Positions 3,211 through 21,581 of a DNA stretch of 31,787 nt are shown in pieces. Location: positions 1 to 31,787 of the IMG/VR virus record IMGVR_UViG_3300029267_003537; one strand, given 5' to 3'. Position 1 is the first letter of the stretch. Each line of letters opens with the position of its first letter. A program made the translations under genes and the position numbers. Source of the DNA: a virus. Under the pieces are notes generated by a model, which was not told the origin of the DNA, did no database searches, and saw nothing but the letters and a program-made list of their open reading frames with translations.

Positions 3211-6200
3211 CGGCCGAGGCGGAAGCTGCGCCGCTGGTCGTCGTCGATCTGCCGGCGGCTCCGTCGGAAGCTGTCGGCGTCAGGCGTCGTGATGTTGAAC
3301 ACGGTGGTCATGCTACGCGGACCCTCGACGTTCCGGCCGAGCGGGTCGCGGTCGCGCGTCGGCGCCGGGCGCGGAGCCGGAGCGGCCGCCGGCGTCGAGC
3401 CGAGGAGCCCGCCGCGCTGCATCGGCGTCAGCTCGCCGTCCGTCCGCACGCCGAGGTTCCCGTCGGACAGGCGCCCGATCGGCAGAGCCACGCGCCGGCC
3501 GCCGATCGAGGCCATCACGCCGAGACCCCCGCCGGCGAGCTGTTCGAGCGGGAACACGCCCTCCTTGCGCGCGCCCTCGCCGATGAGCGCCTGCGGCACC
3601 ATCGTCGGCGAGGAGACCACGCCCGAGGCGAGTCCGGCCGACAGCCCGCGGTCGAGCCGGCCGCCGCGGGCGAGCGCCGTCACCCGCCCGCCGCCGCCGA
3701 CCAGGCCGCGCGCGCCGGCAGCCGTGGCCGAGCCGACCGCGCTGCCCGTCCCGAGGATCGACGCCGCCTGCGACGCAGCCGAGAGGATCGCGCTGGCGGC
3801 CGCCTGGCCGCCTGAGGCGAGCGCAGAGGCCGCGGCCGACCCGGCGGACCCCAGGGACGCTGCGACGGACTGGGCGGCCGTGGAGAGCGCTGCGGAGGCA
3901 GCCTGCGCCGCGGCGACCTCGCCGGAGCCGAGGTTGGCCCCGATGCCAGCGCCGAGCTGCCCGAGCTGCTCCGCGAGCGGGCGCGTGACGAACTGCTCGA
4001 AGCCGATCTCGGCGATGCGGAGGCCGACCCGGTTGATGACGTCCTCCAGCTCGCCCCCGCGCAGCGCCAGCTCCGCGAGCCCGTCGCCGATCGTCCGGCC
4101 GACGCCCTCCCCGATCTCGCCGTACTGGCGGATCAGCTCCACCTGCCGTTCGAGCGCCGCGATCTCGTCGCGCCGCGCCTCGACCTGATCGAGCGCGCGC
4201 TCAAGCTCCCGGTCGGACAGCTCCGCCGCGGACCGGAGCACCTCGTCGCGCGCTTGCAGGATGGTCAGCTCCGTGCGCCTCTCCGCGCCCGCGAGCTGGA
4301 GTAGGTCGATCTCGGTCTGGATCGTGTCGACCGTCTGGAGCGCGACCGCGAGCCCGAGCTGCCCACCGCGCAGCGTCCCGCTCGGCGCCGGCTCGGCTGC
4401 AGCTTCACGCGCAGCAGCCTCAGCCTCCGCGATCTCGTCGAGCTGCCGCTCGATGTCCGCCAGCTTCTCGGGGTCGACCGTCGGGATGACCGGGATGTCG
4501 ATGCCGCCGCGCGAGGACAGGCCGAGGCCGCCGAGGAGACCGCCGAGCGTGGGGTTGCGCGCGAACGATTGGAGCCCGTCGCTGATGATGCCGCCGACCT
4601 GCTCCGCGATCGCCTCGCGCCGCTCGACACGCGCCTGCTCGATGCGCCCGAGTGCCTCGTCGATCTCCGCGAGGATCCGCGCCGGGTTGAACGTCAGGTC
4701 GAAGTCGTTGAGGAACTGCTCGCCCTCGCGCCCGAACGCCGCGCGGATGAGCGCGCGCGCGCGTCGGATGCCCGTGGCGATCTCGCCGACGTAGTCGCGC
4801 TCGAACGCAGCAGCGAACTCCTCGCCGGCCGTGCGCAGCAAGCCGGTCGGCGCGAGCCCCGCCTCAAGGCCGGACGAGAAGCGCGCGATGGACTCAAGGA
4901 TCGCACGCGGACTCGACAGGTCGATGTCGGCAAAGAGGTCCCCGATGTTCGCGATCTTCTCGACCTGGCTACTGATCGTGTTGAACGCGCCGACGAAGAG
5001 CGCGATGACCTTGTTGAGGAAGAATCGCGCGACGTCGAACACGACCTGCATCGCATCCCCGAAGTTGAATCCGAGGATGAGCATGAGCGCCCGCACCTTC
5101 TGGACGAGGCCGCGGTCGATGACCTCGATGAAGTCGCGCGCGAACTCGACCGCGAGGCGGACCGTGACCGTGAACAGCGTCGCGAGCACGCGGAACGCTG
5201 CGCCGAGTCGACGCACGCCGACCTCCCACGTGGCGGCCCAGACGTCGCCGACGCGCGAGCTACGCCCGCCGAAGCTGATCGACGCATCCTCGACGAGCTT
5301 GAACGCGCCGGCGAGTGTCGCCAGCGCGGCGACCGCAATGCCGACCGGACCCGTGGCGAGGGTGAGGATGACGCCGCCGGCGGCGACGAAGAAGCCCACG
5401 ACCTTGATGCTCGCGAGCGCGCCGAGCGCGAGGCCGGCAACCTGGATCGAGCGCGCGAGCACGAGTCCCGCGGTCGACGCATTCTCCATCGCACCCTCCG
5501 CGCCGGCGAGGATGCGGATTGCCTCCGCGAGCGTGTCGACGATCGCACGCAGCGCGCCGTCGCTCTCCTCGAACGACAGGACGAGCGCCTCGCTCGCAGC
5601 CGCGAGTCGACGGAACGCACCTGCGAGCGTGTCCTCCTGGATGTTCGCGAGACGCTGCGCCGTACCGGACGCCTCGTTTTGCGTCTCGACGAGTGCCTCT
5701 AGCGCGTCGATCGACTCGCTGAGGATGATGCCGCCCGCCGCCTGCCGGCGACCGAAGATGCGGAAGAACTGATCCGCGCTCGTCCCCGCTTCACGGAACA
5801 GGCGGAGGATGCGGAAGAGCGGAGGCGTGACGCCGTCGGCGCTCTCCTGCGTCAAGTCGAAGAGGTCGACCGACACGCCGAGCTGCTCGGCGAGCGCCTC
5901 GAACTCGCGACGCGCCATCGACGTCGGCGCCGAGAGCGCCGCGAGGATGCCGCGGAGCTGTGTGCCGGCGAGCGAGCCCTGCAGACCCGCGTCGCCGAGC
6001 TTGCCGATCGCCGCCGTCGTCTCCTCGATGCTCAGCCCGAGCGCGCGCGCCACAGGACCGGAGAGCTTGAGCGCCTCCGCGAGCTGCGTCACATCCGTGT
6101 TCGTGCGTATCGTCGTGTTCGCGAGGACATCGGCGACCCGGTCCATCTCGGTCGCGTCGAGCGCGAACTGCTTGAGTGCGTTCGAGGCGAGGTCGGCCGC

Positions 6201-6713
6201 CGAGCCGAGGTCGATGGACGTCGCCGCCGCGAGCGACAGCGTGCCCGGCAGCGCGCCAAGGATCTCGTCGACCTCGAAGCCGGTCCGCGCGAGGAAGAGC
6301 TGCGCCTCGCCCACCTCGCGCGCAGAGAAGCGCGTCGACGCGCCGAGCCGAAGCGTCGCAGCACGGAGCCGGTCGAACTGCTCCGCCTGCGCCGCGGCCG
6401 ACTGGTTCACGCGGATCGCGATGCCCTGGACCTGCGCCATCGTCTCGCCGTAGCGCGAGAGCGTGCGGATGCCCGGGGTCGCCGCGCCGATCAGCGCGAG
6501 CCCGCCGAAGAGCGAGCGCATCTGCCGCGTGAGCTGCTGGGTCTCACGCCCGAGCCGGCGCGTCGTCCGCGTCGCTCGGCCCTGCGTCCGGTCCCAGCGC
6601 GTGACCGTGCGCTCGTTGCGGTCGACCGATCGGTCCAGCTCGTCGACGCGCCGGCGCGCTTGCTGCACGCCGGTCGTCTTGATCCGCAGCTCTAGCTCAG
6701 CGAGGTCGACCAT
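3207..6713 (-). CDS. Tail tape measure protein (TP901-type core)
   Basis: 1168 aa, the longest gene, sited directly after the frameshifted tail chaperones as expected. ATG at 6713 has a GGAG Shine-Dalgarno 7 nt upstream and overlaps the end of the chaperone extension by 17 bp. Residues 1-80 are charged and coiled-coil-like (VQQARRRVDELDRSVDRNER). Residues about 85-340 match the TP901 tape measure core: ETMAQVQGIA, LGASTRFSAREVGEAQLFLA, DLASNALKQFAL, ADVLANTTIRTNTDVTQLAE, AIGKLGDAGLQGSLAGTQLR. A hydrophobic block lies at about 424-471, a likely membrane-insertion segment used during DNA ejection. The last 250 residues are Ala/Gly/Ser-rich then Pro-rich. It sets tail length; at about 0.15 nm per residue the tail would be about 175 nm (inference). 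Confidence 0.93.
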   Translation of the reverse strand: MVDLAELELRIKTTGVQQARRRVDELDRSVDRNERTVTRWDRTQGRATRTTRRLGRETQQLTRQMRSLFGGLALIGAATPGIRTLSRYGETMAQVQGIAIRVNQSAAAQAEQFDRLRAATLRLGASTRFSAREVGEAQLFLARTGFEVDEILGALPGTLSLAAATSIDLGSAADLASNALKQFALDATEMDRVADVLANTTIRTNTDVTQLAEALKLSGPVARALGLSIEETTAAIGKLGDAGLQGSLAGTQLRGILAALSAPTSMARREFEALAEQLGVSVDLFDLTQESADGVTPPLFRILRLFREAGTSADQFFRIFGRRQAAGGIILSESIDALEALVETQNEASGTAQRLANIQEDTLAGAFRRLAAASEALVLSFEESDGALRAIVDTLAEAIRILAGAEGAMENASTAGLVLARSIQVAGLALGALASIKVVGFFVAAGGVILTLATGPVGIAVAALATLAGAFKLVEDASISFGGRSSRVGDVWAATWEVGVRRLGAAFRVLATLFTVTVRLAVEFARDFIEVIDRGLVQKVRALMLILGFNFGDAMQVVFDVARFFLNKVIALFVGAFNTISSQVEKIANIGDLFADIDLSSPRAILESIARFSSGLEAGLAPTGLLRTAGEEFAAAFERDYVGEIATGIRRARALIRAAFGREGEQFLNDFDLTFNPARILAEIDEALGRIEQARVERREAIAEQVGGIISDGLQSFARNPTLGGLLGGLGLSSRGGIDIPVIPTVDPEKLADIERQLDEIAEAEAAAREAAAEPAPSGTLRGGQLGLAVALQTVDTIQTEIDLLQLAGAERRTELTILQARDEVLRSAAELSDRELERALDQVEARRDEIAALERQVELIRQYGEIGEGVGRTIGDGLAELALRGGELEDVINRVGLRIAEIGFEQFVTRPLAEQLGQLGAGIGANLGSGEVAAAQAASAALSTAAQSVAASLGSAGSAAASALASGGQAAASAILSAASQAASILGTGSAVGSATAAGARGLVGGGGRVTALARGGRLDRGLSAGLASGVVSSPTMVPQALIGEGARKEGVFPLEQLAGGGLGVMASIGGRRVALPIGRLSDGNLGVRTDGELTPMQRGGLLGSTPAAAPAPRPAPTRDRDPLGRNVEGPRSMTTVFNITTPDADSFRRSRRQIDDDQRRSFRLGR

Positions 6714-7546: not shown

Positions 7547-9031
7547 TCAGACGTTGAGGCTGTTGCTCACCTGGATGGTCAGGAAGCTCGGGCGCGTCGT
7601 GCCGCCGGCGACCGCGAGGCCCGACTGCTTGAGCGCACGGAACGGCATCTCGATCGCGATGGGCCCCTCCTGCGGCGGGTCGATCGCACCGCCGTTGTAC
7701 TTCACGCGGGGGAACACGATCGACATGAACTCGCCGGCCACGTTCGGGTCGTCGAAGCGCGTCCAGATCGTCGACTCCGTCTCGTTCACGAACTTGTTGA
7801 ACAGCGTCTCGTTCTCGAAGTAGACGTTGAGCGTGCCCTGGATGTTGGCCTGCCCACCGAAGACGTCGGGCGAGAAGCGCGAACCGATGACGGGGTTGAG
7901 CGAGCGGTTGCGCGACAGCGTGAAGTCCAGCGAGGTCGCCACCGCGTAGCGCGTGCCGCCCTCGTAGATTTCGCCATCGAACGCCGCGAGCGGGGAGGTG
8001 CCGTTGGCCGCGATCGGGTCGATGGCCGACGTCGACGAGGACGCGAGCGCGACCGCGCTCATGCCGAGCAGACCGAAGCTGCCGCCGATGATCGACTCCG
8101 GCTCGACGCTCAGCTGCATCTCGTTCACGGCGACGCCGTTGAACACCTGGTACTCGCTGATGTCGGAGAACGCCCGTTCGAGGAGGAACGTGCAGATGTC
8201 CGTCCCGATGTCGATGCGCTTCCCGGGGAACACGAGCGATTTGCCGCTCGCTTCCGATTCGCTGCTCGGCGTCGTCGTGCCGTCGGTCGTCGAGACGACG
8301 GACAGCTCCGTAGCCGCGACCGCCGTCACGCGCCAGTCGCCGTTGTTCGCCGTGTCGAAGAGCGTCGTGCGGATGATGTCGCCGGGGCGGAAGCCGTCGG
8401 TGATGAAGCTACCCGCGGCGCGCGTGAAGCCACCGGCTGAGGAGACACCCATGTCCGGCGACCCCGTGACGGCGATGTCGGTGTCCCACTCGCGCCCCAT
8501 CGCGAACTCGATGAAGTCGTCGTAGTCCTCGCGCGACAGCTGGAACCCAGGCGACCCGACCACGCGGTTGAAGCCGTGACGCACATCGGTCTCCATGCCG
8601 TCGGCGTCGACCTCCTCGGACTCCAGCAGGTTCTTCTCCAGGTTGACGTTCCGGCCCGTCGCGCGCAGCGTCGAGAGGGCGATGCGCGCGGTCTGCGCCG
8701 TCGCAGCCGTCTCGTCCACGATGACGTCGTTGTCGTCGAGGACGGACAGAACCGTGGCGGTGACGCCCCACACGCGCCACGTTCCGTTGTTCGCCGCGTT
8801 CGTGAAGCCGCTCGTGACGATCTTCTGTCCGCGGAAGAATCCGTCGTCGACGAAGCTGCCGGACGCGCGAGTGAAGAGCGAGAAGCCGGCGCCGGCCGGC
8901 GCGGTCGCCGTCGCTCCGATGCTGGTGACGGGGGTCGTGAGGGCGGCCGGCGTGGCGTTGCGAGTGCTCTCGCGGCAGTAGCGCAGCGAGGCGCGCGTGC
9001 CGGAGGCGAGGATGGTTCCGGTGCTGGACAT
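7547..9031 (-). CDS. Major tail tube protein with two repeated insert domains
   Basis: 494 aa, ATG at 9031. The start MSSTGTILASGTRASLRYCRE is typical of tail tube proteins of siphoviruses (an 'R..l.y..E.t' strand), and the region around 120-180 (ALSTLRATGRNVNLEKN, FQLSREDYDDFIEFAMG) and 265-494 (KRIDIGTDICTFLLERAF, GVAVNEMQLSVEPESIIGGS, FEIPF-like MPFRALKQSG) fits the tube beta-sandwich. Two copies of a beta domain are embedded at residues 53-98 and 202-246: FTRASGSFVDDGFFRGQKI...NNGTWRV and FTRAAGSFITDGFRPGDII...NNGDWRV. Such domains probably decorate the outside of the tube. It lies between the terminator-like gene and the chaperones, as expected, and would be abundant in virions. Confidence 0.85.
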   Translation of the reverse strand: MSSTGTILASGTRASLRYCRESTRNATPAALTTPVTSIGATATAPAGAGFSLFTRASGSFVDDGFFRGQKIVTSGFTNAANNGTWRVWGVTATVLSVLDDNDVIVDETAATAQTARIALSTLRATGRNVNLEKNLLESEEVDADGMETDVRHGFNRVVGSPGFQLSREDYDDFIEFAMGREWDTDIAVTGSPDMGVSSAGGFTRAAGSFITDGFRPGDIIRTTLFDTANNGDWRVTAVAATELSVVSTTDGTTTPSSESEASGKSLVFPGKRIDIGTDICTFLLERAFSDISEYQVFNGVAVNEMQLSVEPESIIGGSFGLLGMSAVALASSSTSAIDPIAANGTSPLAAFDGEIYEGGTRYAVATSLDFTLSRNRSLNPVIGSRFSPDVFGGQANIQGTLNVYFENETLFNKFVNETESTIWTRFDDPNVAGEFMSIVFPRVKYNGGAIDPPQEGPIAIEMPFRALKQSGLAVAGGTTRPSFLTIQVSNSLNV

Positions 9032-9046: not shown

Positions 9047-9496
9047 TCAGGAGGAGACGGGGGTGAAGACCCGCCAGCGGATCGTCACCGTCTTGAAGAT
9101 CCACAGCGAAGAGCCGCGGTCGTCGGCCGAGTCCCGATAGGGCGCCCTCTCGGTCCGCTCGATGATGGCCGTGAGGCCGTCAGCCGTCAACGACTGGCCC
9201 GCCTCGAACGCCTCGGCGACCGCCTGAGCGAGCGCGTCGGCGTCCTCGGTGCCACCCGTTCCCGGCGTGAACACTGCGTAGGTCGTGGTCCCGGTCGCCT
9301 CGATGAAGCCGGTCGAGGACTTGGACTCGCCGAGGATCGAGACGAACTCCCGCACCCACAGGTCCCCAGGATTGGGGTCCGGCGGGGTGAAGCTGCGCCC
9401 TTCCCACGCGAGCCGCGCCTCGGGCGGCAGCGTCGAGACGGTCTTGAGCCGCGCGCGGAAGAGGCGCCGGAGCGCGGATTCGTTGAGCATCGCCAT
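9047..9496 (-). CDS. Tail terminator-like protein (DUF4128-like)
   Basis: 149 aa, ATG at 9496; a second in-frame ATG follows at 9490. The signature stretches are TLPPEARLAWEGRSFTPPD, GDLWVREFVSI, TTYAVFTPGTGGTEDADALA, EAFEAGQSLTADG and a final VTIRWRVFTPV. This pattern (W-G-F-P, W-V/L-R, Y.vFTP.GtG...A..LA..v...F..G) is that of DUF4128 minor tail proteins, which occupy the tail terminator position of siphoviral gene orders. It should cap the tail tube and connect it to the head. It lies directly before the tail tube gene and after the gp10-like gene, supporting the call. Confidence 0.75.
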   Translation of the reverse strand: MAMLNESALRRLFRARLKTVSTLPPEARLAWEGRSFTPPDPNPGDLWVREFVSILGESKSSTGFIEATGTTTYAVFTPGTGGTEDADALAQAVAEAFEAGQSLTADGLTAIIERTERAPYRDSADDRGSSLWIFKTVTIRWRVFTPVSS

Positions 9497-9499
9497 CGG

Positions 9500-9955
9500 T
9501 CAGAGCTGCCTTCGGACCTCGCCGACTGCGCGCGACAGGTTGGCGGCCAGCTCACGGAACGTCGCGCCGTAGATGCCGTCGGGCTGGTTGTTGGTCTGCG
9601 CGCTCCATCCGTTCTCCAGCCGGCGCGCGTAGGGGAGGCTGTTCGTGATGTGCACCGTGACGCCGAAGCGCGCGCGGCTGAGCGTACCCTGCACCCGGTT
9701 CAGGTCCGACGGCGACGCCTCGCGCGTGACGCCGGCGCGGCTGCTCCGGCTCGCACGCGGCGGCTCGACCGAGGGGTCGATGCGGTTGATCGTCAGGCGG
9801 TGCGACGAGCGGAAGCGCCCCGTGTCCACAGGCGAGCGCTTGATGATCCCTGCGTAGGCGTCGAGCGCGAGCTTGCGGAGCACGAGGTCGGGGGCGAGCT
9901 GCGTCTTGCGGACGAACTCGCTGACGTCGGCGCGGAACTTGGCGGGCGTCGTCAT
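9500..9955 (-). CDS. HK97 gp10-like neck / head-tail completion protein
   Basis: 151 aa, ATG at 9955, one base past the previous stop. The motifs LALDAYAGIIKRSPVDTGRF (the conserved 'P.dTG.lr.S' stretch), SSHRLTINRIDP, and VHITNSLPYARRLENGWSAQ (the 'i.n...Ya..lE.G.S' stretch) followed by PDGIYGATFRELA are the classical HK97 gp10 family pattern. Members act in the head-tail neck or as tail completion proteins. Position just before the terminator-like gene is as expected. Length is normal for the family. Confidence 0.82.
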   Translation of the reverse strand: MTTPAKFRADVSEFVRKTQLAPDLVLRKLALDAYAGIIKRSPVDTGRFRSSHRLTINRIDPSVEPPRASRSSRAGVTREASPSDLNRVQGTLSRARFGVTVHITNSLPYARRLENGWSAQTNNQPDGIYGATFRELAANLSRAVGEVRRQL

Positions 9956-9956
9956 C

Positions 9957-10346
9957 TCAGCTCCTACAGATCAGCTCGGTCAGCGCGCGCGAGTCGCCGG
10001 AGAAGAACTCCCGGACGCGCACGATTTGGAACTCTCGGCCGGCGACCGTGACGTACACCCGCGCGTTGGTCGCGGGGATCGGGTCGAACGCCGCATCGTC
10101 CAGATCCTTCGACGCGCAGAACACGACGACGTCGGTTGAGAGGATCGCGTTGTCGCCGCGGCGCTGGTCGTACTCGACCGGCAGCGGCGGCGTGGTCTTG
10201 AGCGACACGCTCGTCGACGTCGTCGATGCCACGCCCGTTGCGCTGTCGTACGTCTCGGACTGACGCACGAACAGCGCGGGGTCGTCGGTGAAGAGACCGA
10301 CGATCGTCTCGGCGAGCTGCCGGAGGCTGTTGTCGAGGAGGCCCAT
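9957..10346 (-). CDS. Putative head-tail connector (head closure) protein
   Basis: 129 aa, ATG at 10346 in a TGATG overlap with the previous stop. Starts MGLLDNSLRQLAETIVGLFT, followed by a DPALFVRQSETYDSATGVAST segment and strands such as VEYDQRRGDNAILSTDVVVF and NARVYVTVAGREFQIVRVRE. A short N-terminal helix and then a beta-barrel-like region with 'd..i..gd..v.i.g..y.V..v' is typical of siphoviral head closure/connector proteins. No single family can be assigned confidently; the slot between the DnaT-like and gp10-like genes supports a neck role. Confidence 0.6.
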   Translation of the reverse strand: MGLLDNSLRQLAETIVGLFTDDPALFVRQSETYDSATGVASTTSTSVSLKTTPPLPVEYDQRRGDNAILSTDVVVFCASKDLDDAAFDPIPATNARVYVTVAGREFQIVRVREFFSGDSRALTELICRS

Positions 10347-11101
10347 CAGGAGCGGTAGAGCGGCAGCATCTTGGCGCCGTGCTGCGCCTCGGGTTCGAGG
10401 TAGCCGAGCGGCGAGAGGAGCGAGAGGATGTTCTGAGGCACGACGTCGATGCGCTCCTCCGACCCGACCTTGACCGCGATCGGTCCGAGCCGCGCCTCCT
10501 CGATGCCCTGCCCGAGTAGGCCGGGCTGCTCGAAGCGGTTGCGCTCCAGGAGCGACAGCGCCAGCTCCGCGGTCGCCTCCTCCAGCAGCTCCGGGATCAG
10601 GTCGAAGTCTAGGTTGTACCCGTCCGCGTCGACCACGCCGGAGCGCGGCCAGCGGAGGCGTTGCTCCTCGGTCCGCTTCGACCCGTACCAGCGCATCATC
10701 TGATCGAGCAGCCGCGTCGCCCAGACGAGCGCCGCCTCGCGATCGTTCGCCGTGAGCCGCTCGACCACCGCATCGTCGGCGACGTCGGCGGTCAGCGCCG
10801 GCTCGATCTTGAGCGCGCCGTCGGTGCGGAGCGGCGACGTCACCGCGTAGACGGTCGAGTGTCCGGCGAAGCGCACGCGGCTCTCCTTCGTCCACAGGCC
10901 GGTGCCCGTGTCGACGTCGATGCTCCGCGCGCCGGCCGTCGCGCCGCCGTTCGCGAGCCAGCCAGCGGCGTCAGGCTCGTCGCTCGCGCTCGTCCACGCC
11001 GTCGCGTACAGGCGCGCGCCGAGGATCTCGTCGGCGCGCGCGACCGAGCAGTAGCTGTTGGCCGAGGAACCTTTGACGGTCGTGTCGATCGGGGTGCTCA
11101 C
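10346..11101 (-). CDS. DnaT-like / head-tail adaptor family protein
   Basis: 251 aa from a GTG at 11101, chosen because it forms a GTGA overlap with the previous stop and because the conserved N-terminus VSTPIDTTVKGSSANSYCSV begins there. Conserved features are SYCSVARADEILGARLYATAW, a helical ANDREAALVWATRLLDQMMRW, YGSKRTEEQRLRWPRSGV (the 'G....Q.L.WPR' signature), and LIPELLEEATAELALSLLE. This set matches the family annotated in phages as putative DnaT-like ssDNA-binding protein, found at the head-tail adaptor position of siphoviruses. A structural adaptor role is more likely here than DNA binding. Residues about 60-110 form an extra beta insert. Confidence 0.75.
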   Translation of the reverse strand: MSTPIDTTVKGSSANSYCSVARADEILGARLYATAWTSASDEPDAAGWLANGGATAGARSIDVDTGTGLWTKESRVRFAGHSTVYAVTSPLRTDGALKIEPALTADVADDAVVERLTANDREAALVWATRLLDQMMRWYGSKRTEEQRLRWPRSGVVDADGYNLDFDLIPELLEEATAELALSLLERNRFEQPGLLGQGIEEARLGPIAVKVGSEERIDVVPQNILSLLSPLGYLEPEAQHGAKMLPLYRS

Positions 11102-11793
11102 TTGAAGGTCTCCGTGGGCATGACGTTGTGGTACTCCGAGAGGATGTGACGGATGGTGCGCGCCGCGCCAACGACGATCTCGCGCTGCATGACCGTCGGT
11201 TCGATCGTCCCGTCGGGAGCGACCTCGACGCCCGTGCCCCCGGCTTCGTCGCGCGCGCGGAAGTTGAACGACAGGTACGCCATCCAGTGCCCTTCGCAGA
11301 CGTGCCCAACGAGCGGCACGATCGAGCCCACATGGTCGTCGGACTCGTACAGGTTCTTGAGCGCGCCCGGCTTGAGGTGCTCGGTCGAAAGCGTCACGCC
11401 GTTGCCCTTGTCGCTCGCGACATCCGTGAGGAGCTTGAGGTACGGGCCGTCCGCGAGCCAGTCCTGCCACTGGGCGTGGATGAGGCGCGTGCGGTCGGAT
11501 GCTACCTCGTAGCGGATCGAAACCTTGACCTCGCACCCCGGCTTCGGCACGCCGCCGTTGTTCCGCGCGACGAGGAACATCGCGCGCGAAGCGCCGGCGT
11601 TGCGGCGCGCCATCTCCAGGGTGTCAAGAACACGCTGCATGCCTTCGTAGCCTCGTCGGGTTGCTTCCGCCTCCCCACGCTGGACACGGCGCGCGTACGC
11701 GCTCGCGATCTCGCGAACGCCCCAGGCGACCGCGAGCAGAACGCTGATCTTGGCGTCCTCCATCGAGAGGGCGAGGAGCGGGTTGGCATTCAC
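11098..11793 (-). CDS. Unknown protein in the neck region
   Basis: 231 aa from a GTG at 11793 that overlaps the preceding stop as GTGA. I do not recognise the family. The first 60 residues are helical (MEDAKISVLLAVAWGVREIA, ETRRGYEGMQRVLDTLEMAR-like stretch); the remainder alternates strands and loops with VSIRYEVASDRTRLIHAQ, WLADGPYLKLLTDV, GHVCEGHWMAYLSFNFRARD and a C-terminal QREIVVGAARTIRHILSEYH helix. It sits between a small beta protein and the DnaT-like adaptor, so a virion or head-assembly role is likely by position only. Confidence 0.7.
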   Translation of the reverse strand: MNANPLLALSMEDAKISVLLAVAWGVREIASAYARRVQRGEAEATRRGYEGMQRVLDTLEMARRNAGASRAMFLVARNNGGVPKPGCEVKVSIRYEVASDRTRLIHAQWQDWLADGPYLKLLTDVASDKGNGVTLSTEHLKPGALKNLYESDDHVGSIVPLVGHVCEGHWMAYLSFNFRARDEAGGTGVEVAPDGTIEPTVMQREIVVGAARTIRHILSEYHNVMPTETFK

Positions 11794-12188
11794 GGGTTGA
11801 TGACGTTCGGGAGGATGGTCAAGGTGCCGACGGCGAGGACGATCGCGTTGCCGTTCGAGTCGACGCCCTCCAGCTCGTGATAGTACGTGCCTTCGAGGTC
11901 TTCGGTGTCCGCCGCGATGAGCTGGACGTCGGCGCGCTCGTCGTTGTCACCGGCGATGTCGATCTCGTTCCCACCAGTCGACGCCTGCGCGGTCGTGCTC
12001 TTCTTCTCCAGCACCGGGTGTCGACGGAACGCAACCGTCGAGGCGTTGTCGTACGGAACGACTGCCCAGCGAAGCACGCTGTACGCCGTCAGGTCGTCCG
12101 GCGTGTCGCTGTCCGTGTCGGTCACGGTGAAGCGCGCGGACACGCGGGTCCCCGCGTACATCGAGAGGTTCTGGTCTGTCGAGGTCAT
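11790..12188 (-). CDS. Small beta-rich structural protein
   Basis: 132 aa, ATG at 12188 overlapping the stop of the repeat protein as ATGA. The sequence NLSMYAGTRVSARFTVTD, DDLTAYSVLRWAVVP, ERADVQLIAADTED, LEGTYYHELEGVDSNGNAIV, LAVGTLTILPNV shows the plan of small phage proteins with an Ig/BppU-N-like fold ('G.t......d..g...DLt..t...w.v......... y...l...D..G....l..G.i.i'). These often join fibres or baseplate parts to the particle, but here the gene lies in the head-neck block. Function is not certain; the similarity is a visual one. Confidence 0.6.
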   Translation of the reverse strand: MTSTDQNLSMYAGTRVSARFTVTDTDSDTPDDLTAYSVLRWAVVPYDNASTVAFRRHPVLEKKSTTAQASTGGNEIDIAGDNDERADVQLIAADTEDLEGTYYHELEGVDSNGNAIVLAVGTLTILPNVINP

Positions 12189-14824
12189 GTCGAGAGGCTC
12201 CGCGTGCCAAGGAGGTTGACGTTCACGCACCGCGCGCCGACCAGCGAGGCGTTGATCGAGCGCGCGCCGACGAGCGTCGCGACGACGTCGCGAGACCCAG
12301 CGAGCGTGACGATCTCGACCACCTCGGCGACCGGTGCCCCAGAGCCAGTCGCCGTCGCGGTCGCCACGCCGGCCGCGCTTCCGTCGAGCGCAGCCGTCGC
12401 AGCCAGGGTAGCCGCAGCCGTCGCGGTCGCCGCGATCGACACGGAGAGCGCGACCGTCGCTGCGAGACGGAATGCCGGAAGCGTCGCCGCGCCCGCGATC
12501 GAGCCCGCGAGCCGGCCGAGCAGCCGCCCGGTCGCCGTCGCCGTCGAGGATCCGGCCGACGTGCCGTCGAGCGCGCCGATGCCGACGAGCGTCGCGCGAG
12601 GGGTCGGCCGCGCGCTCGCCTGCACGCTCCCGTCGAGCGCCGCGGTCGCGGAGAGCGTCGCCGTCGTGGTCGAGGTGCCCGAGACCGTCCCGCCGAGGTC
12701 GCCGAGCGGCGCGAGCGTCGCTGACGTGGTCGAGGTGCCCGCGATCGTGCCCGCGAGCGCCCCCGTGCCCACGAGGGCGCCGTCGGTCGTCGCCGCGCCG
12801 GCCGACTCACCGGCGACCGTCCCTGATCCGAGAATCGAGGCGGCCGCGGTCGAGGAGCCGCTGACGTTGGCGGAGAGCGCGCCCGGGGAGCCCACGGCGG
12901 CCGAGGTCGAGGCGGCGCCGGCGGCAGAACCGCTCAGAGCTCCCCTGCCGCTCGCTGTCGCCGCGGCGGCCGCGAGGCCGGCCGAGGACCCGCCGAGCGC
13001 AGCGGACGCGCTCAGGGACGCAGTGAGGGCGCTGGTGCCCTCCGCCGTGCCGGTCAGCGCCGCGGCTGCGGCCAGGGCGGCCGTCGTCGCCGCGAGCCCC
13101 GCCGCAGACGCGCTCAGCGCGCCCGTGCCGACGAGGGCCGCGTCGGTCGACGCGAGGCCCGCCGCGGAGCCGTCGAGCACGCCAGGCGCAGCCACGGCGC
13201 CCTCCGTCGTCGCGGCGCCGTCGGCCGAGCCCGCGAGCGCGCCGGTGCCCACGAGGGCGCCGTCGGTCGTCGCCGCGCCGGCGGCCGAGCCGTCGAGCGT
13301 CGCCGCGCCCGCGAGCGTCGCGGTAGCCGTCGCCGCGCCGGCCGCGGACCCGTCGAGCACGCCCGCGCCGACGAGGATGCCGTCGGTCGTCGCCGAGCCC
13401 GCGGCCGAGCCATCGATTGCAGCGGTCGCCGAGAGCGTCGCCGTCGTTGTCGCTGCGCCGGCGGTCGACCCGTCGATCGGGCTCAGGGTCACGGCCGCGC
13501 CAATCGACGCCGTCGTCGTCGACGTGCCGAACGTGAAGCCGCTGATCTTCTGGTCCTGGACGGTGCCGGAGCCAGAGCCAGTGATCAGCAGCGTCCCGTC
13601 GCCTTCGCCGTCGGTGATCTTCTGGATCGCCAGGTAGGCAAAGTCACGATCGGGGCTGACGACGTCCGTGTAGTCGAGCGTAAATCCGCTTGCCGTCAGC
13701 TCGTCGATCTCCGCCGAGATGATCGTCGCGCCCGAGGCGTGATTCCGAAGGTGGACCACCTTGTTGGCGGCCAGCCGGTCGTCGTTGTCCGTGTTGGCGG
13801 AGCCGTTCTCTTCGCGAGCCGAGAACGCAGCAACGTCGAGGTTCGCGCCGTCGAAGAACGCGAGGCTCATGTTGCCGACGGTCAGAAGCGACCCGGCAGC
13901 CGCGGCGTTGCCCACCGGCACGTACACGAACTCGGGGTAGAACCCAGCCTCGTTGTACGCCTTTGACGTCACGCTGGTGCTCGTCGTCGCGCCGGTCTCG
14001 ACATGGACGTTGGCTCCGCCGACGTTCAGCGCGAGTCCGATCGTCCGATCCCCCGGACCCACGCCAGCGCTGAACTCCGAGATGTCGAAGCCCGTCGAGG
14101 TGAAGTTGTCGACGATGTTCGCGCCGTCGATACTCCCGGGGTTCGAGCTGTGGTCGTGCTGGATGCTGATGCGGTCGTTGAAGTACCCGCGCACCGACTG
14201 ACCGTTCGCCGTCCCGTCGTTGACGAGCATGACGGAGACACCCTGGTCCGACTGCGTGAAGACGCCGAACTGCATCTTCATCTCGGCTTCCTCGTCCGTG
14301 CTCCCGTGCATGTTCACGGTGAAGCCACAGTCGACCTCGAATCCCGTGGTCACGGTCGTCGGGGAGGTCGCGCCGGGAGCGTCGGCGCTGAACGCGAACG
14401 CTTGCGTGCCGTCTCCGTAGAACAGGACGACGATGATCGGGATGGTCGTCGTGGGGTTCGTGTCGATGTCGAACCGAACGCCATCCGTGATCCAGGAGTT
14501 GAACGACAGCTCCATGAGCGCCGATGCGCCGTCGTCGTCAGGATCGGGCAGGTAGACGCAGCGCGTCGCGCTTCGAGTCTGACCGCTGTTGGCCGAGGCG
14601 CTGGCGTCCTGCGACCAGTAGCCCACCGCGTACTCGTTCGTTCCGTCGCCGACGCCCCAGCTCAGAGTAATGTCGTCGAGGTTCGAGTCGACCACCCGGT
14701 GCCTGCTGCCCAGGACGAGGAAGCCAACAGGAGTCCCCTTGCCCGACACCGTGACGTCGAGCGTGCTCGCGCTGGTCGAGACTAGGGTCGTGGAGACCTG
14801 GGCTTCAAAGTGACGGGCAACCAA
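12185..14824 (-). CDS. 879-aa structural-type protein with tandem 20-residue repeats
   Basis: The frame starts at a TTG (14824) 5 bp after the previous stop; no ATG or GTG is available in frame near it. Residues 1 to about 440 are beta-rich and contain TPVGFLVLGSRHRVVDS, SFNSWITDGVRFDIDT, DCGFTVNMHGSTDEEAEM, GFYPEFVYVPVGNAAAAG and FAYLAIQKITDGEG; this may be a concanavalin- or jelly-roll-like virion domain, but I cannot name the family. Residues about 449-831 are about 19 imperfect 20-residue units of the form xLdGSaAGaAtTdaaLvGtG. Residues 840-879 are four 10-residue units of the form tLvGaRsinA. It is likely a surface decoration or fibre-like protein. It lies between small structural genes and the neck genes. 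Confidence 0.75.
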   Translation of the reverse strand: MVARHFEAQVSTTLVSTSASTLDVTVSGKGTPVGFLVLGSRHRVVDSNLDDITLSWGVGDGTNEYAVGYWSQDASASANSGQTRSATRCVYLPDPDDDGASALMELSFNSWITDGVRFDIDTNPTTTIPIIVVLFYGDGTQAFAFSADAPGATSPTTVTTGFEVDCGFTVNMHGSTDEEAEMKMQFGVFTQSDQGVSVMLVNDGTANGQSVRGYFNDRISIQHDHSSNPGSIDGANIVDNFTSTGFDISEFSAGVGPGDRTIGLALNVGGANVHVETGATTSTSVTSKAYNEAGFYPEFVYVPVGNAAAAGSLLTVGNMSLAFFDGANLDVAAFSAREENGSANTDNDDRLAANKVVHLRNHASGATIISAEIDELTASGFTLDYTDVVSPDRDFAYLAIQKITDGEGDGTLLITGSGSGTVQDQKISGFTFGTSTTTASIGAAVTLSPIDGSTAGAATTTATLSATAAIDGSAAGSATTDGILVGAGVLDGSAAGAATATATLAGAATLDGSAAGAATTDGALVGTGALAGSADGAATTEGAVAAPGVLDGSAAGLASTDAALVGTGALSASAAGLAATTAALAAAAALTGTAEGTSALTASLSASAALGGSSAGLAAAAATASGRGALSGSAAGAASTSAAVGSPGALSANVSGSSTAAASILGSGTVAGESAGAATTDGALVGTGALAGTIAGTSTTSATLAPLGDLGGTVSGTSTTTATLSATAALDGSVQASARPTPRATLVGIGALDGTSAGSSTATATGRLLGRLAGSIAGAATLPAFRLAATVALSVSIAATATAAATLAATAALDGSAAGVATATATGSGAPVAEVVEIVTLAGSRDVVATLVGARSINASLVGARCVNVNLLGTRSLST
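12188..12307 (-). repeat. Four 10-residue C-terminal repeats
   Basis: The last 40 residues of the 879-aa protein are four tandem units: TLAGSRDVVA, TLVGARSINA, SLVGARCVNV, NLLGTRSLST. They form a second, shorter repeat class after the 20-residue repeats and may form one coil or strand of a beta-helix per unit. Confidence 0.75.
12332..13480 (-). repeat. About 19 tandem 60-bp repeats coding 20-residue units
   Basis: Units include PIDGSTAGAATTTATLSATA, TLDGSAAGAATTDGALVGTG, ALAGSADGAATTEGAVAAPG and TVAGESAGAATTDGALVGTG. Seventeen are exactly 20 residues, one is 22 and one is 21. Near-identical DNA blocks recur at multiples of 60 bp, for instance around 12776 and 13256 (480 bp = 8 units). The pattern suggests expansion by recombination or slippage, with a beta-solenoid or extended rod as the likely fold. 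Confidence 0.9.
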
Positions 14825-14828
14825 CGCA

Positions 14829-15239
14829 TCAGATGGTGAGCGTGAGCGAGGACACGGTCACGAGCTGCCCTGCGGTGATCGAGGTATCGTCCAGCTCCAG
14901 CTCGGCACCGGAAGACGTCGCTCCGACGTCGCCGTTGACCCACGGCGTGCCGCTCCCGTCGACGAGCTGGAAGCATCCCGCCGTACCCGACGCCACCGCC
15001 TCCGCCGCGGTGATCGCGTTCGCGGAGAGGGTGGCGCCGTTCGACGTCTGCGACGCACCGGGAAAGGCGGGGTTGGACAGAGCCAGCGTCGCCAGGAGCG
15101 TGCCCGCAGGCAGCGCGTCCGGGTTCGACGGCTGGCTCCCCGTGTAGATTTTCAGATCGCCGCCACCGGACAGGTCGAGCGAGTCGACGATGTCGTTCAG
15201 GCAGTCCTGCGCCCTGGTCTTGGCGATCCGTACCGCCAC
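14829..15239 (-). CDS. Conserved phage minor structural protein
   Basis: 136 aa from a GTG at 15239 with GAGGA 7 nt upstream, placed inside the end of the preceding gene. The sequence has DLKIYTGSQPSNPDALPAGT, LLATLALSNPAFPGASQ, ASGTAGCFQLVDGSGTPW, VNGDVGATSSGAELELDD and SITAGQLVTVSSLTLTI. This 'l.iYtG..P......aGtlLatl.lsnPaf......G' plan is shared by a widespread family of small phage virion proteins found near the capsid or tail genes. Exact role is not known; it follows another protein of the same kind of size and context. Confidence 0.7.
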   Translation of the reverse strand: MAVRIAKTRAQDCLNDIVDSLDLSGGGDLKIYTGSQPSNPDALPAGTLLATLALSNPAFPGASQTSNGATLSANAITAAEAVASGTAGCFQLVDGSGTPWVNGDVGATSSGAELELDDTSITAGQLVTVSSLTLTI

Positions 15240-15242
15240 GGA

Positions 15243-15683
15243 TCAGTCCTCGGTGATGTCCAGGTCTCCGGCTTCGATCTCCGGCGTGATGCCGGAGGAC
15301 ACGGCGAGCGACGCGGTGAACGCGCCCTTGTAGAGCAGCTTGCCGGTGCCCGTCGAGTCCGTCCCGACACCGAAGTGCGTAATCGTCTCGGAGCCGCCCG
15401 TGCACTGCGGGAAGGTGATCGCCGCAGCGTTCGTCGCGAGGTTCGACGCGACCGTCCAGCCGCCCGAGTTGCGCGCCACAGCCACGCGAGCGTAGCTCGT
15501 GTACGCAGCCTCGTTGGTCTCCTGGTCGCCCGCCTCACCGGGGTCGCCGGTGTGGAGCGAGACGTAGAGGCTGCCGGCGGTCGCCGAGCCCTGCAGCCCG
15601 GTCGCGTCGCCGATGTCGCCCGTGTCGGTGTTGTTGAACAGGAGGTCGAGCAGGTCGTTCTCCCAGGCGTTCGTCTTGGTCAT
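15243..15683 (-). CDS. Conserved phage structural protein, tail-fibre-like family
   Basis: 146 aa, ATG at 15683. The pattern ENDLLDLLFNNTDTGDIGDA, GSLYVSLHTGDPGEAGDQET, NEAAYTSYARVAVARNSGGW, TVASNLATNAAAITFPQCTG, ITHFGVGTDSTGTGKLLYKG is a very widespread phage family, often labelled tail fibre or minor structural protein. The 'lyvsLHtgdPge.g.Q.tnE..Y.gYaRv.v.R..ggw' core is the recognisable signature. Here it lies shortly after the capsid genes, so it may be a capsid or neck decoration; its labelled role as fibre is not proven. Confidence 0.75.
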   Translation of the reverse strand: MTKTNAWENDLLDLLFNNTDTGDIGDATGLQGSATAGSLYVSLHTGDPGEAGDQETNEAAYTSYARVAVARNSGGWTVASNLATNAAAITFPQCTGGSETITHFGVGTDSTGTGKLLYKGAFTASLAVSSGITPEIEAGDLDITED

Positions 15684-15726: not shown

Positions 15727-16221
15727 TCAGGCGCGCGCCGCGAGGATGGCTTCGACGAGGTCGGCCTTGGTCTTCGGCTGGCTGTCGAGCGCCTTCGCCT
15801 CCGGCAGCTTGGTCAGCGCGTCGAAGGTCATCGTGAGCAGCTCGTCCTTGGAGCGGGCCGCGTTCGACGGGGGAGCGGCCGGCGCCGCGGGCGCAGCGGG
15901 CGCAGCCGGAGCATCGGGAGCAGCGGGCGCCGGCTCGGGCTCGTCGCCGATGACGACGTCACCGGGACGTTCGAGGCCGACGTTGCACGTAACGATGCGC
16001 GTCGAGCCGTCGGGCAGCGTGCGACGCACCTTGTGGGTGCTGACGAGGCGCGCCTGCAGCGTGTAGGCCGCCTCGCTCGTCGGGCCACCGTCCGGCGCGA
16101 TGGTCGGCTTGGGCCGGTTCGACTCGACGCCGAGCGCGGCGAGCTTCTTGTCCAGCTCCGTCTTCATGCGGAGCAAGTCGTTGATGTGAGCCTGTTGCTC
16201 TTGCGGGCTGAGTCCGCTCAT
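15727..16221 (-). CDS. Small protein with Ala-Pro linker and HeH/LEM-like C-terminus
   Basis: 164 aa, ATG at 16221 supported by GAGGAGG 8 nt upstream; the longer upstream frame is rejected for this reason. Residues 1-30 form a charged helix (LSPQEQQAHINDLLRMKTEL), 40-90 a strand-rich part (AAYTLQARLVSTHKVRRTLP), 97-118 an Ala-Pro repeat linker (PAPAAPDAPAAPAAP and on), and 124-164 a small helical end (KDELLTMTFDAL, KTKADLVEAILAARA) that resembles HeH/LEM or SAP-type helix-turn-helix termini seen in phage head proteins. A possible head-associated or neck protein; function is not assigned. Confidence 0.7.
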   Translation of the reverse strand: MSGLSPQEQQAHINDLLRMKTELDKKLAALGVESNRPKPTIAPDGGPTSEAAYTLQARLVSTHKVRRTLPDGSTRIVTCNVGLERPGDVVIGDEPEPAPAAPDAPAAPAAPAAPAAPPSNAARSKDELLTMTFDALTKLPEAKALDSQPKTKADLVEAILAARA

Positions 16222-16362
16222 GGTCTGTGCCTCCTCGGGCTTCTTGGGGTGTGGTCTCCGCGCCCGGGAGTCGAGCGCGGTGGAAAGTGGCGAGGAGCGC
16301 GAGCAGGGCAACCCGAGCCCCTCGCCTGACGTTGCACCCGAGGAGGCCGCAACGCGAATCGG

Positions 16363-16684: not shown

Positions 16685-17824
16685 TCAGCCGAGGACGCGG
16701 CAGCCCAGCTCACGACGGACGACGTTCGCGCCGTACAGGATGTCGTAGCTGAAACGGTCGCGCTTGTGCTCGCGCGTCATCTCCAGGCGCAGCGCGAGGC
16801 CGGACACCGGATCGACCGCGGTCTCGATGATCGAGCCGGGGTGACGCGAGCCGGCGAGCGGGCGCGTCGCGAAGGCGATGGCGTCGCGGTGGAACGCGAG
16901 GTTCATCACGTGCGAGCCGACGCCGCCGGTGTCGCCCGGGCCGATGACGTCGACGCCGTCGGCGACCGCGACCACGAGGCCGGGCTCGATGTTGATGAGG
17001 GTCGCCGAGGCGCCGCCCGTCGAGCCGGTGATGACGTAGGTCTGATCGTGACCCGTGAACTTCACGATGTCGCCGACGTTGAACGCGCCCGAGCCGGTGT
17101 CGATCGCGACCTCCTTGTCCCCGATGGCGGAGCCAGCCGTGCCGGTGTTCGTCACGTAGCCGGCGGCGGCGCCGACGGTGTGCGACTGCACGTTCTGGTC
17201 CATGAACATGTCGAAGCCGAGGCGTCGCGTGATCTGACCTTCGAGGATGGCGGCACCGCCGACGCCGAAGCTGGCGTCGTGGAACGCGCGCAGCTCCAGC
17301 GCCTCCGCCTCGGCGTCCGCGTTCATGACGAAGCGCCGATCGTTGAGGGGAGCGAGCTGGTTGTTGAGCACCTTGCGCGCCTGCGTCGCGTCGGCGACGG
17401 ACGAGGTGAACGGGGTCGTGCCCGCGGTGCCCTGCACGCCGTAGAACTTCGTGCCGAGGCCGAGGAGGAACTGGTCGACCTCGTTCGCGAGCGACCGGAT
17501 CGCCGAGGAGGCCATCATCGGCAGCGCGCCGTTCTGGACCTCCATCATGTCCTTGTCGGTGAGGTAGAACGGCGCCTCCTTCCACCGCGTCAGCGGGATC
17601 GACACCGTGCCCGGCGTCTGGGTCGCGGTGCTCGGGGGCGTCGCGCCGGGCGTGACGTCCTGCACGGCGACGTCACTCGGAAGCGGGACGTCGATGCTCG
17701 AACCCTGCGGACCCGCCAGGGTCTCGTACTCACGGTTCACGAGGAGGGGCATCACCGCCATCTCACGGAGGGCCATGAGGCCCTGCGCGAGCAGCTGCGG
17801 GATGACGTTGCTGAGGTCGTTCAT
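16685..17824 (-). CDS. Major capsid protein, P22 coat-like (HK97 fold)
   Basis: 379 aa, ATG at 17824. The N-terminus MNDLSNVIPQLLAQGLMALR, EMAVMPLLVNREYETLAGPQ and a following GSSIDVPLPSDVAVQDVTPG fit the P22 gp5-type coat family ('...reaL..L...mv...lv.rdYe...g...v.v..P'). Further features are LTRWKEAPFYLTDKDM (the conserved 'd....f.ltd.d'), SLANEVDQFLLGLG, DRRFVMNADAEAEALELRAF, GFDMFMDQNVQSHT, and a beta insert (GDIVKFTGHDQTYVITGSTG) which is an Ig-like or I-domain type insertion seen in this family. It follows a hairpin-containing gap and precedes a strong hairpin. The Shine-Dalgarno GGAG lies only 2 nt from the start and within a short CTCC/GGAG inverted repeat, which is unusual for a highly made protein. 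Confidence 0.87.
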   Translation of the reverse strand: MNDLSNVIPQLLAQGLMALREMAVMPLLVNREYETLAGPQGSSIDVPLPSDVAVQDVTPGATPPSTATQTPGTVSIPLTRWKEAPFYLTDKDMMEVQNGALPMMASSAIRSLANEVDQFLLGLGTKFYGVQGTAGTTPFTSSVADATQARKVLNNQLAPLNDRRFVMNADAEAEALELRAFHDASFGVGGAAILEGQITRRLGFDMFMDQNVQSHTVGAAAGYVTNTGTAGSAIGDKEVAIDTGSGAFNVGDIVKFTGHDQTYVITGSTGGASATLINIEPGLVVAVADGVDVIGPGDTGGVGSHVMNLAFHRDAIAFATRPLAGSRHPGSIIETAVDPVSGLALRLEMTREHKRDRFSYDILYGANVVRRELGCRVLG

Positions 17825-19574: not shown

Positions 19575-20402
19575 TCAGTCCTGCGCGACGCGCTTCTCGC
19601 CCTTCGCGATGGCTTCCATGTTCTTGCCGATCGCGACGGGGTCGCGCGCGACGAGCCCCTTCTGGTCGTCCTTGCTCTCCGGCGCGTCGTTGCCGCCACT
19701 GCCGCCGCCTCGCGCCGGCTCGAAGAAGAACGAGCGCCGGTCGAGCAGCTCGTGTTGCACGTACTCCTCGGGCTTGATCGGCGAGCCGTCCTCGGCCATG
19801 AGGTCCTTGCGCTTCGGGACGAGGTTGCCATCCGCGTCGGTCGTCCAGTCCGCGCGGATGCGGTCGGCGAGGTCGAGCTTGGCGCCCGAGCGCACGCGGA
19901 GGTTCCGCTCGTCGATCATGCGCGTCACCTTGTCGAGCGCCTGCATCGAGGTGTAGTTGCCGACGAGCTTCTCGTGCTGGCTTTTCAGCTCGGAGTACGC
20001 CTCGCGCGCCTGCTTCACCTCCTTGTTCTTGTCGTCGAGCATCCGCGCGGTGCGGCGCTGCACGACCTCGTCGATGTTGCCGGCCTGGATCAGCTTGCGC
20101 TCCTCCTCCTCCTCGATCTCGCCGATGCGCTCCTGGAACTTCTTGACCGCCTCGGGGTCGATGCCCTCGAACTGCGAGCGGAGCTGCCCCATCTCGCTCT
20201 TCATCCGTTCGAGCTGCTGGTTCAGCGCGCGGTTGCGGTCGCGGAACTCGGCGAGCCGGTCGTCGTTGCCGCCGCTCGCCGGCGGCGCCGCGCCCTCGAT
20301 CTGGATGTCATCGCGGAGGTGGAACGCACCGTCGCGCTCTTCGTAGAGCCCGCGCGCGTAGTCGGGGATGTCGTCTTGGCTGTCGTACTTCTTGCGGAGC
20401 AT
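19575..20402 (-). CDS. Capsid scaffold protein
   Basis: 275 aa, ATG at 20402 with GAGGA 7 nt upstream. It lacks hydrophobic cores and is dominated by a long charged coiled coil from about 50 to 160 (RDRNRALNQQLERMKSEMGQ, QERIGEIEEEEERKLIQAGN, VKQAREAYSELKSQHEKLVG). The C-terminus is basic-acidic and mobile (DPVAIGKNMEAIAKGEKRV), as in scaffold proteins that bind coat subunits. Position after portal and Mu-F-like head protein and before the coat gene is the standard scaffold slot. Alternatives (protease-scaffold fusion) are not supported, since no protease motif is seen. Confidence 0.78.
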   Translation of the reverse strand: MLRKKYDSQDDIPDYARGLYEERDGAFHLRDDIQIEGAAPPASGGNDDRLAEFRDRNRALNQQLERMKSEMGQLRSQFEGIDPEAVKKFQERIGEIEEEEERKLIQAGNIDEVVQRRTARMLDDKNKEVKQAREAYSELKSQHEKLVGNYTSMQALDKVTRMIDERNLRVRSGAKLDLADRIRADWTTDADGNLVPKRKDLMAEDGSPIKPEEYVQHELLDRRSFFFEPARGGGSGGNDAPESKDDQKGLVARDPVAIGKNMEAIAKGEKRVAQD

Positions 20403-20417: not shown

Positions 20418-21581
20418 TTAGTTGAGCAGCTGCTTGACGGGGACGAGGTTGCCGCCCGAGTCGATGAGCTGCGAGAGTGTAATCTGCCCTTCCTTCCAGG
20501 CGTCGAACAGCTCGGGGCCGAGCTTGTTGCGGGCGAACTCGTCACCCTTGATGTTGAGCCAGTCGTCGAACGTGCGCACGCGACCGGAGCCGATCTGCCC
20601 GTCCATCGTAGCGCGAGCGCTGTCCGGCACCGTGTTCAGCTTGTCGAGCCGGCGCCCGGACGCGCGCTCGATCAGCTCGTCCCACGAGTACGTCACGGGT
20701 GAGAGTTGCGTCCGGCACTTGAAGTGCCACGGCGGCGGCCCCGGGAAGCCCTCCTGCGTCGCGCTCGTCGGGAACGGCTCGCCGTTGACGTACCACGCCG
20801 ACCCGGTCCGCGCCATGCAGATGCGGCTCGTCCGGCCGTCGAGCGTGGTCACGGCTTCGTAGCCCTTGATGAGGTCGCCGTTCTCCTCGTAGACGTTCAT
20901 CGCCGCGCGGTTGCCCACCGACTGCGCGCTCGTTCGCACGAGCGTCTCGGCCTGGTTGCGCGAGACGTCCATCGCGCCGCCGGTGAACTCGCGCACGCGC
21001 TTTGTCCGCCCGCGCGGCGTCGTGATCTCGATGGTGCGCCCGGTCGAGCGCCCACGCACGCGGCGGATCAGCTCCTCGTTCGTCTCGCCCTGCTGGATGC
21101 CGAGCCGCATCTCGCGCGCGAAGCGGCGCCGCGTCCCCTCCGCCTGCCCGTTCCACCAGTCGCGCGCCGGCTCGCCAAGCACGACGTCGCGGTCGACGAG
21201 CGCGCGCAGCTCCGAGCGCGTGAGCGTCGGCGCGACGATGTTCACGCGGAACAGGCCGTTGAGGACGGACACCGCCTCGCCCTGCATGAAGGTCGCCGCC
21301 TCCAGTGCACCGCGCGCGGACTGCGTCGCCGCCGTCGAGTAGCGCCCCGCGATGACCGTGCGTGTCTCGCGGAGCAGCTTCTCCAGCCGCCGGCGCTTGA
21401 GCGACTCCGACGAGAGGCCGGCGAGGTCGGCCGCCCTGAGCTGCCGCACGAGGTCGGTCTCCAGCACACGGAGCGTCGAGACGACACGCGCGCGTGTCGT
21501 CAACGTGAGCCGGTTGAGGTCGATCTGGCTGCTCGTCAGCTCGACCGCCGCCAGCTCGGCCGCGTTGAGGTTCTCGGCCAT
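20418..21581 (-). CDS. Mu F-like minor head (morphogenesis) protein
   Basis: 387 aa, ATG at 21581. The C-terminal half carries the Phage_Mu_F/SPP1 gp7 signature: DVSRNQAETLVRTSAQSVG and NRAAMNVYEENGDLIKGYEA, TTLDGRTSRICMARTGSAW (residues about 245-265), and FPGPPPWHFKCRTQLSPV (about 282-298). Cys and His in the RICMA and HFKCR motifs likely bind a metal. Such proteins sit inside the head near the portal and can be ejected with DNA. It directly follows the portal gene, as is standard. Confidence 0.9.
   Translation of the reverse strand: MAENLNAAELAAVELTSSQIDLNRLTLTTRARVVSTLRVLETDLVRQLRAADLAGLSSESLKRRRLEKLLRETRTVIAGRYSTAATQSARGALEAATFMQGEAVSVLNGLFRVNIVAPTLTRSELRALVDRDVVLGEPARDWWNGQAEGTRRRFAREMRLGIQQGETNEELIRRVRGRSTGRTIEITTPRGRTKRVREFTGGAMDVSRNQAETLVRTSAQSVGNRAAMNVYEENGDLIKGYEAVTTLDGRTSRICMARTGSAWYVNGEPFPTSATQEGFPGPPPWHFKCRTQLSPVTYSWDELIERASGRRLDKLNTVPDSARATMDGQIGSGRVRTFDDWLNIKGDEFARNKLGPELFDAWKEGQITLSQLIDSGGNLVPVKQLLN

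Follow-up and report, generated by a model that had tools for sequence, protein, structure and literature searches.

What does a phage build from a protein in which a unit of 20 residues recurs 19 times in tandem? The question is raised by one gene of a bacterial virus (IMG/VR record IMGVR_UViG_3300029267_003537), for which the window, that is the stretch of DNA analyzed, spans the entire record of 31,787 bases. An earlier note, made from the letters of the DNA, had described the repeat as part of a virion-type protein with an implied repetitive fold, perhaps a surface protein of variable length.

The repeat gene and its structural operon

The structural genes of the window lie on the minus strand and are of the tailed-phage type, as judged by PHROG and Pfam matches. 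The order is terminase (TerL, 25961-27436), portal (21591-23189), head morphogenesis (20418-21581), scaffold (19575-20402), a P22-like major capsid protein (16685-17824; phrog_283, Pfam P22_CoatProtein), phrog_240 (15243-15683), phrog_3758 (14829-15239), the repeat gene (12185-14824), phrog_1084 (11790-12188), head-tail adaptor Ad1 (10346-11536; PHROG match to phrog_477), Neck1 (9500-9955), tail terminator (9047-9496), tail tube (7547-9031), and tape measure (3207-6713). The repeat gene thus sits after the head genes and before the head-tail adaptor genes, Ad1 being the nearest annotated structural gene downstream, and this position in a head/tail operon bears out the description as a virion-type protein. 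The phrog_240 gene is filed as a ‘head protein’ in PHROGs (E 1.7e-21), and the same gene was matched by the Pfam family PF23140 (Gp80, Podophage GP4 fiber I protein; E 7.9e-24) and by PDB 8jou chain a (E 6.1e-10). The phrog_3758 gene (E 9.8e-26) encodes a virion structural protein of the head and packaging class. Relatives of the major capsid protein (38-54% identity) carried no such repeat gene at the equivalent position among the loci read, so the cassette is not tied to this capsid lineage.

Three other features of the operon were observed. A glycoside hydrolase gene (2248-3210, minus strand; phrog_2913) directly follows the tape measure gene and is a possible tail-tip cell-wall enzyme. Pfam labels 10346-11536 as ‘DnaT_2, putative DnaT-like ssDNA binding protein’; PHROGs and context point to the Ad1 connector, so the Pfam name looks misleading. 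A small tandem repeat of Gly/Ala codons with a period of 9/18/27 is present at 15871-15930, within an unassigned gene (15727-16311) adjoining the capsid gene.

The repeat gene is an open frame of 879 codons on the minus strand, and its product starts with an N-terminal domain, continues with the repeat block, and closes with a short C-terminal tail. The start is TTG at 14824 or GTG at 14821, of which GTG is likelier because the orthologue described below starts with GTG. A plus-strand frame (11877-13637, 586 residues) was rejected as a gene; it is periodic only through its overlap with the repeat gene. The minus-strand frame was preferred over this mirror frame because a conserved orthologue exists for the minus-strand frame only.

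The N-terminal domain (residues 1-432; 13529-14824) is non-repetitive and mostly beta by composition. Searches of Pfam, PHROGs, PDB, and phage records returned no match to it, and with two orthologues added to the query there was still no PDB match. The repeat block (residues 450-832; 12329-13477) contains 19 tandem units of about 20 residues with the consensus LdGSaAGaATttaaLvGtGa, and A, T, G, and S make up most of it, resulting in a low-complexity composition. Units start at residues 450, 470, and so on to 730, then at 752, 772, 793, and 813. Position and unit agree with the earlier note within 3 bases, as does its count of 17 units out of 19 with exactly 20 residues; the unit at 730 has 22 residues and that at 772 has 21. 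Lag-20 identity was 0.38 over residues 431-845, whereas 2,000 shuffles reached at most 0.26 at any lag from 5 to 64. The same lag-identity test detected no period in the N-terminal 430 residues.

At the DNA level, Tandem Repeats Finder reported a 60-bp array at 13116-13411, and GC content in the repeat region was 73-75%. The 60-bp blocks at 12776 and 13256 had been called near-identical, which was overstated: the 60 bp from these two positions are 73% identical, and the best in-register pair nearby (12758-12817 and 13238-13297) reaches 85% identity, including one uninterrupted match of 38 bp. Recombination between such blocks, as proposed in the earlier note, is a possible source of changes in copy number.

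The C-terminal tail (residues 833-879; 12188-12328) carries an imperfect repeat of about 10 residues (GSRDVVATLVGARSINASLVGARCVNVNLLGTR). Arg-spaced repeats of this kind were dropped as a universal C-terminal statistic, since the pattern is present in 28% of background frames. The stop codon of the repeat gene overlaps the ATG (12188) of the phrog_1084 gene (132 aa, E 1.4e-5) as ATGA. This overlap suggests that translation of the two genes may be coupled.

Unit number in the orthologue and predicted fold of the repeat

The orthologue (L289:1563-3428) was obtained from a search for relatives of the neighboring phrog_240 protein. Its N-terminal domain is 46% identical to that of the window over 424 aa (E 1e-106), the tail motif GSGAPVAEV...LAGxRD is kept (LAGARD in L289), and a phrog_1084 gene overlaps there with the same ATGA junction. 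The two loci differ upstream: in the window phrog_3758 separates phrog_240 from the repeat gene, whereas in L289 the two lie side by side with a 64-b gap. Between these conserved ends L289 has 9 units, all 20 residues apart, compared with 19 units in the window. Unit identity was 0.43 within the window, 0.37 within L289, and 0.35 between both phages, which fits weakly with units having been duplicated within lineages.

Length differences of whole units were also observed among near-identical phages. In a group of Rhodobacter genomes and metagenomes, the L113 protein is exactly 20 residues shorter than those of L143, L148, and L196, and L158 and L189 show further length differences; in a marine group the proteins differ by two or three units. 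Repeats can be collapsed by short-read assembly, and single cases among such near-identical phages are therefore weak, but the L289 comparison does not depend on near-identical units. The earlier note had suggested that copy number could vary and had proposed a comparison of unit counts in relatives; it is clear from the 19 and 9 units of the orthologous pair, and from the exact gains and losses of 20 residues, that the number is not fixed.

The residues D, E, N, Q, K, and R occupied 0/170 odd unit positions and 20/170 even positions in the 17 clean units of the window (Fisher p 1e-6). The 218 distinct units of relatives showed the same alternation over positions 1-15. Such alternation is the signature of a putative strand that buries one face and exposes the other. 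Fixed-length units, alternating positions, and charge-free inner positions, the features sought for a solenoid, were all found. For seven units, AlphaFold2 was given an alignment of 75 rows built from natural, diverged repeats and returned a solenoid-like model (pLDDT 76.9, pTM 0.66) with two strands per unit, of about 9 and 6-7 residues. The full-length model without an alignment was useless (pLDDT 31.6).

In a second-look alignment, the repeat model aligned best with beta-helices and the CsgA curli fibril. The values were Z 13.4 and rmsd 2.6 for 4opw, Z 13.3 and rmsd 2.1 for SufD (5awf), and Z 12.2 but rmsd 7.9 for the curli fibril (8enq), the last being a structural likeness only. Curlin (CsgA) repeats were not recognized by sequence, as no Pfam family was found in the window protein at E 1. 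Foldseek with the model found no PDB match with E < 0.1; two phage proteins without an assigned function were matched at E < 1e-3. No PDB chain matched the repeat protein or a profile built from its homologues in Burkholderia phages.

AlphaFold2 is known to turn perfectly repeated random sequences into confident but false solenoids, in which charges stack in the interior (PMC11795689). The repeats used here are diverged and their inward positions are charge-free, which argues against this artefact without excluding it. The beta-solenoid or rod of the earlier note is therefore upheld in part: strict alternation and the repetitive model (pLDDT 77) support it, but it is unproven given the solenoid bias of AlphaFold2. 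The structure prediction that the note had proposed as a check returned a repetitive fold and not a non-repetitive one.

Two other arrangements of the repeat were considered. Phage fibre shafts are usually trimeric, and the GP4 fibre entry 8jou has three chains of a partner protein of the gp57 type (described below). Both points favor units that are beta-rich but trimerise into an intertwined fibre shaft instead of a single-chain solenoid; the monomer model is self-consistent, and we regard this arrangement as rather unlikely. It is unlikely, too, that the block serves as a flexible and mostly disordered linker of Ala, Gly, Ser, and Thr instead of folding into a rod. The low-complexity composition and the known tendency of AlphaFold2 solenoid models of repeats to mislead (PMC11795689) would suit a linker, but the 20-residue length is fixed in diverged phages and alternate positions are charge-free, neither of which a disordered linker requires. 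The published false solenoids had internal stacked charges, whereas the predicted-inside positions here are the charge-free face.

Gene association and spread of the repeat

The upstream gene 15243-15683, on the same strand and a member of PF23140, provides the Gp80 (phrog_240) component of the GP4 fiber I cassette in the window. The downstream partner position is held by phrog_1084, with its ATGA overlap and with no match to 8jou, while genes of the gp57 type (the 8jou chain D family) follow the repeat gene in L097, L122, and others. Across repeat loci, phrog_240 was the commonest upstream neighbor (10 of 75 upstream proteins). With a phrog_240 model built from eight members, and counting clusters with at least 2 kb of upstream sequence, a phrog_240-like gene was found on the same strand within 5 kb upstream in 18 of 26 repeat clusters, including that of the window, and was absent in the other 8. 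Some repeat genes lie 2-4.7 kb away from phrog_240, with other genes intervening. The gene also occurred in 9 of 96 other pattern-match loci, and most of these 9 have 20-residue repeats that our filter had missed.

A reverse test, which did not depend on the way the repeats had been identified, used phrog_240 loci chosen irrespective of repeats and having at least 2 kb downstream. A periodic gene was present within 4.5 kb downstream in 33 of 54 loci, with period 20 in 25 and period 40 in 8 and no other period; the 54 loci include close relatives of each other, and the effective number is smaller. In the upstream control any periodic gene was found in 7 of 67.

This association bears on whether the same rod might stand on the capsid shell, as a head decoration or head-fibre protein, and not on the neck or tail. 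The gene lies among head genes, and phrog_240, phrog_3758, and phrog_19041 (the family of the repeat protein gp56 of phage BcepIL02) are all filed as head and packaging. Pfam, however, names the phrog_240 family for the GP4 fiber, and the BcepIL02 cassette is followed immediately by tail fiber genes, of which the first (gp58) matches PDB 8jov, GP4 putative tail fiber. A place on the head is quite unlikely on this evidence.

Single-protein searches with the whole protein or its N-terminal part found no relatives in viral contigs, phage records, or genome contigs, an outcome probably explained by masking of the repeat in low-complexity filtering. Many phage loci were recovered with a DNA pattern that called for three units spaced 60 bp apart. 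Matches to a looser pattern included many short-period artefacts (GCRAG, GSSAG), which were filtered out, leaving 41 clusters at 60% identity (rounded to about 40 below); these contain one cluster of five chromosomal look-alikes and a few others (for example L055 and L093) with period 20 and a different unit. In phmmer the window repeat block alone reached about 20 other loci at E < 1e-3; given the biased composition, such links show likeness of pattern, and common descent is not proven thereby. N-terminal domains are unrelated in sequence: that of the window had no match among the first 240 loci. Pfam assigned no family to the repeat in ten proteins tried, except for one sub-threshold match. 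In L292:4580-7240 (plus strand) and L309, a single protein carries an N-terminal domain, then the 20-residue repeats, and then a phrog_1082 tail assembly domain.

The chromosomal matches, such as GSSAGKATTVGNTTYYYNANG (L169, L213, L214, L232, L235), share the spacing but lie outside any phage context, and we did not treat them as relatives. They are short open frames of gut and rumen bacteria with 20-residue units such as GSSAGKATTVGNTTYYYNAN. A quite different phage frame of extreme size, L055:3017-14143 (minus strand), encodes at least 3,708 residues with Tyr/Gly-rich repeats (QYTGQVNETYTGQY...).

That the repeat arose only from tandem duplication of GC-rich DNA, without any function of the protein under selection, as 73-75% GC and 60-bp units up to 85% identical might suggest, is already disfavored and highly improbable, because the frame, the spacing of 20 residues, the overlap, and the two ends are all retained in the orthologue despite about 35% unit identity between the phages, and the spacing is constant across about 40 clusters.

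A probable length-variable appendage and its known counterparts

The gene product is probably a structural component of an appendage on the virion, with a length-variable, beta-rich shaft, encoded in a cassette of the phrog_240 / GP4 fiber-I type. The 19 units would form a regular shaft rich in beta-strands, with two short strands each, most simply a beta-solenoid, giving a stiff rod whose length would scale with unit count. The N-terminal domain would be the head that is swapped between phages, at the exposed, distal end, where we infer a binding role. The C-terminal tail and the translationally coupled small protein are probably on the attachment side, and together with the Gp80-type leader they may anchor the shaft to neck or tail. 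Gain or loss of whole units would let appendage length drift while both ends remain unchanged.

The repeat protein is likely present in the virion particle, as judged from gene context and the annotation of homologues. In BcepIL02, gp55 (phrog_240), gp56 (20-residue repeats; phrog_19041, virion structural protein), and gp57 are all annotated as virion-associated. Virion mass spectrometry of JC1 detected the flanking homologues gp53 and gp55, and the repeat protein gp54 was undetected (PMC9144972); few tryptic sites are only a possible excuse for its having been missed.

It is possible, though short of probable, that the 20-residue unit is a widespread and unnamed phage shaft module. It would act as a molecular ruler whose unit count sets fibre length, with Gp80-type leaders and swapped N-terminal heads, and would have been exchanged among short-tailed, long-tailed, and other phages. 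A literature search, which the GP4 fibre paper lay outside, found no description of this module, its spread, its Gp80-type tie, or its variable count. The reach of a phage depends on the length of its fibre shaft. A module counted in 20-residue steps, variable between orthologues and tied to a structurally known fibre protein, would allow a direct test of whether length is tuned to the host surface or drifts. It would also name a repeat now filed as ‘hypothetical protein’ in many records and account for the dissimilar appearance of phrog_240 neighbors.

Repeated shafts are already known from phage fibres, and three systems can be compared with the window. One is the fiber I complex of Ralstonia phage GP4 (PDB 8jou): the window neighbor 15243-15683 matches its Gp80, but the repeat protein matches no chain of any solved structure. 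BcepIL02 gp56 and its Bcep22-like homologues, like the window gene, lie directly behind phrog_240 and before a small beta protein, and have period 20 and an Arg-spaced C-terminal tail. Compared with the window protein, gp56 is shorter (285 aa) and lacks the large N-terminal domain, its repeats are more diverged (lag-20 identity 0.21), and its next gene is of the gp57 type, not phrog_1084; gp57 itself matches 8jou chain D (E 2.9e-20). The hypothetical protein WWT39678.1 (625 aa) of Microcystis phage Mae-JY04 is dissimilar to the window protein in the sequences of its N-terminal domain and tail, but it shares the gene order, the plan of N-terminal domain, 20-residue repeats, and Arg-spaced tail, and the ATGA-type overlap with a small next gene.
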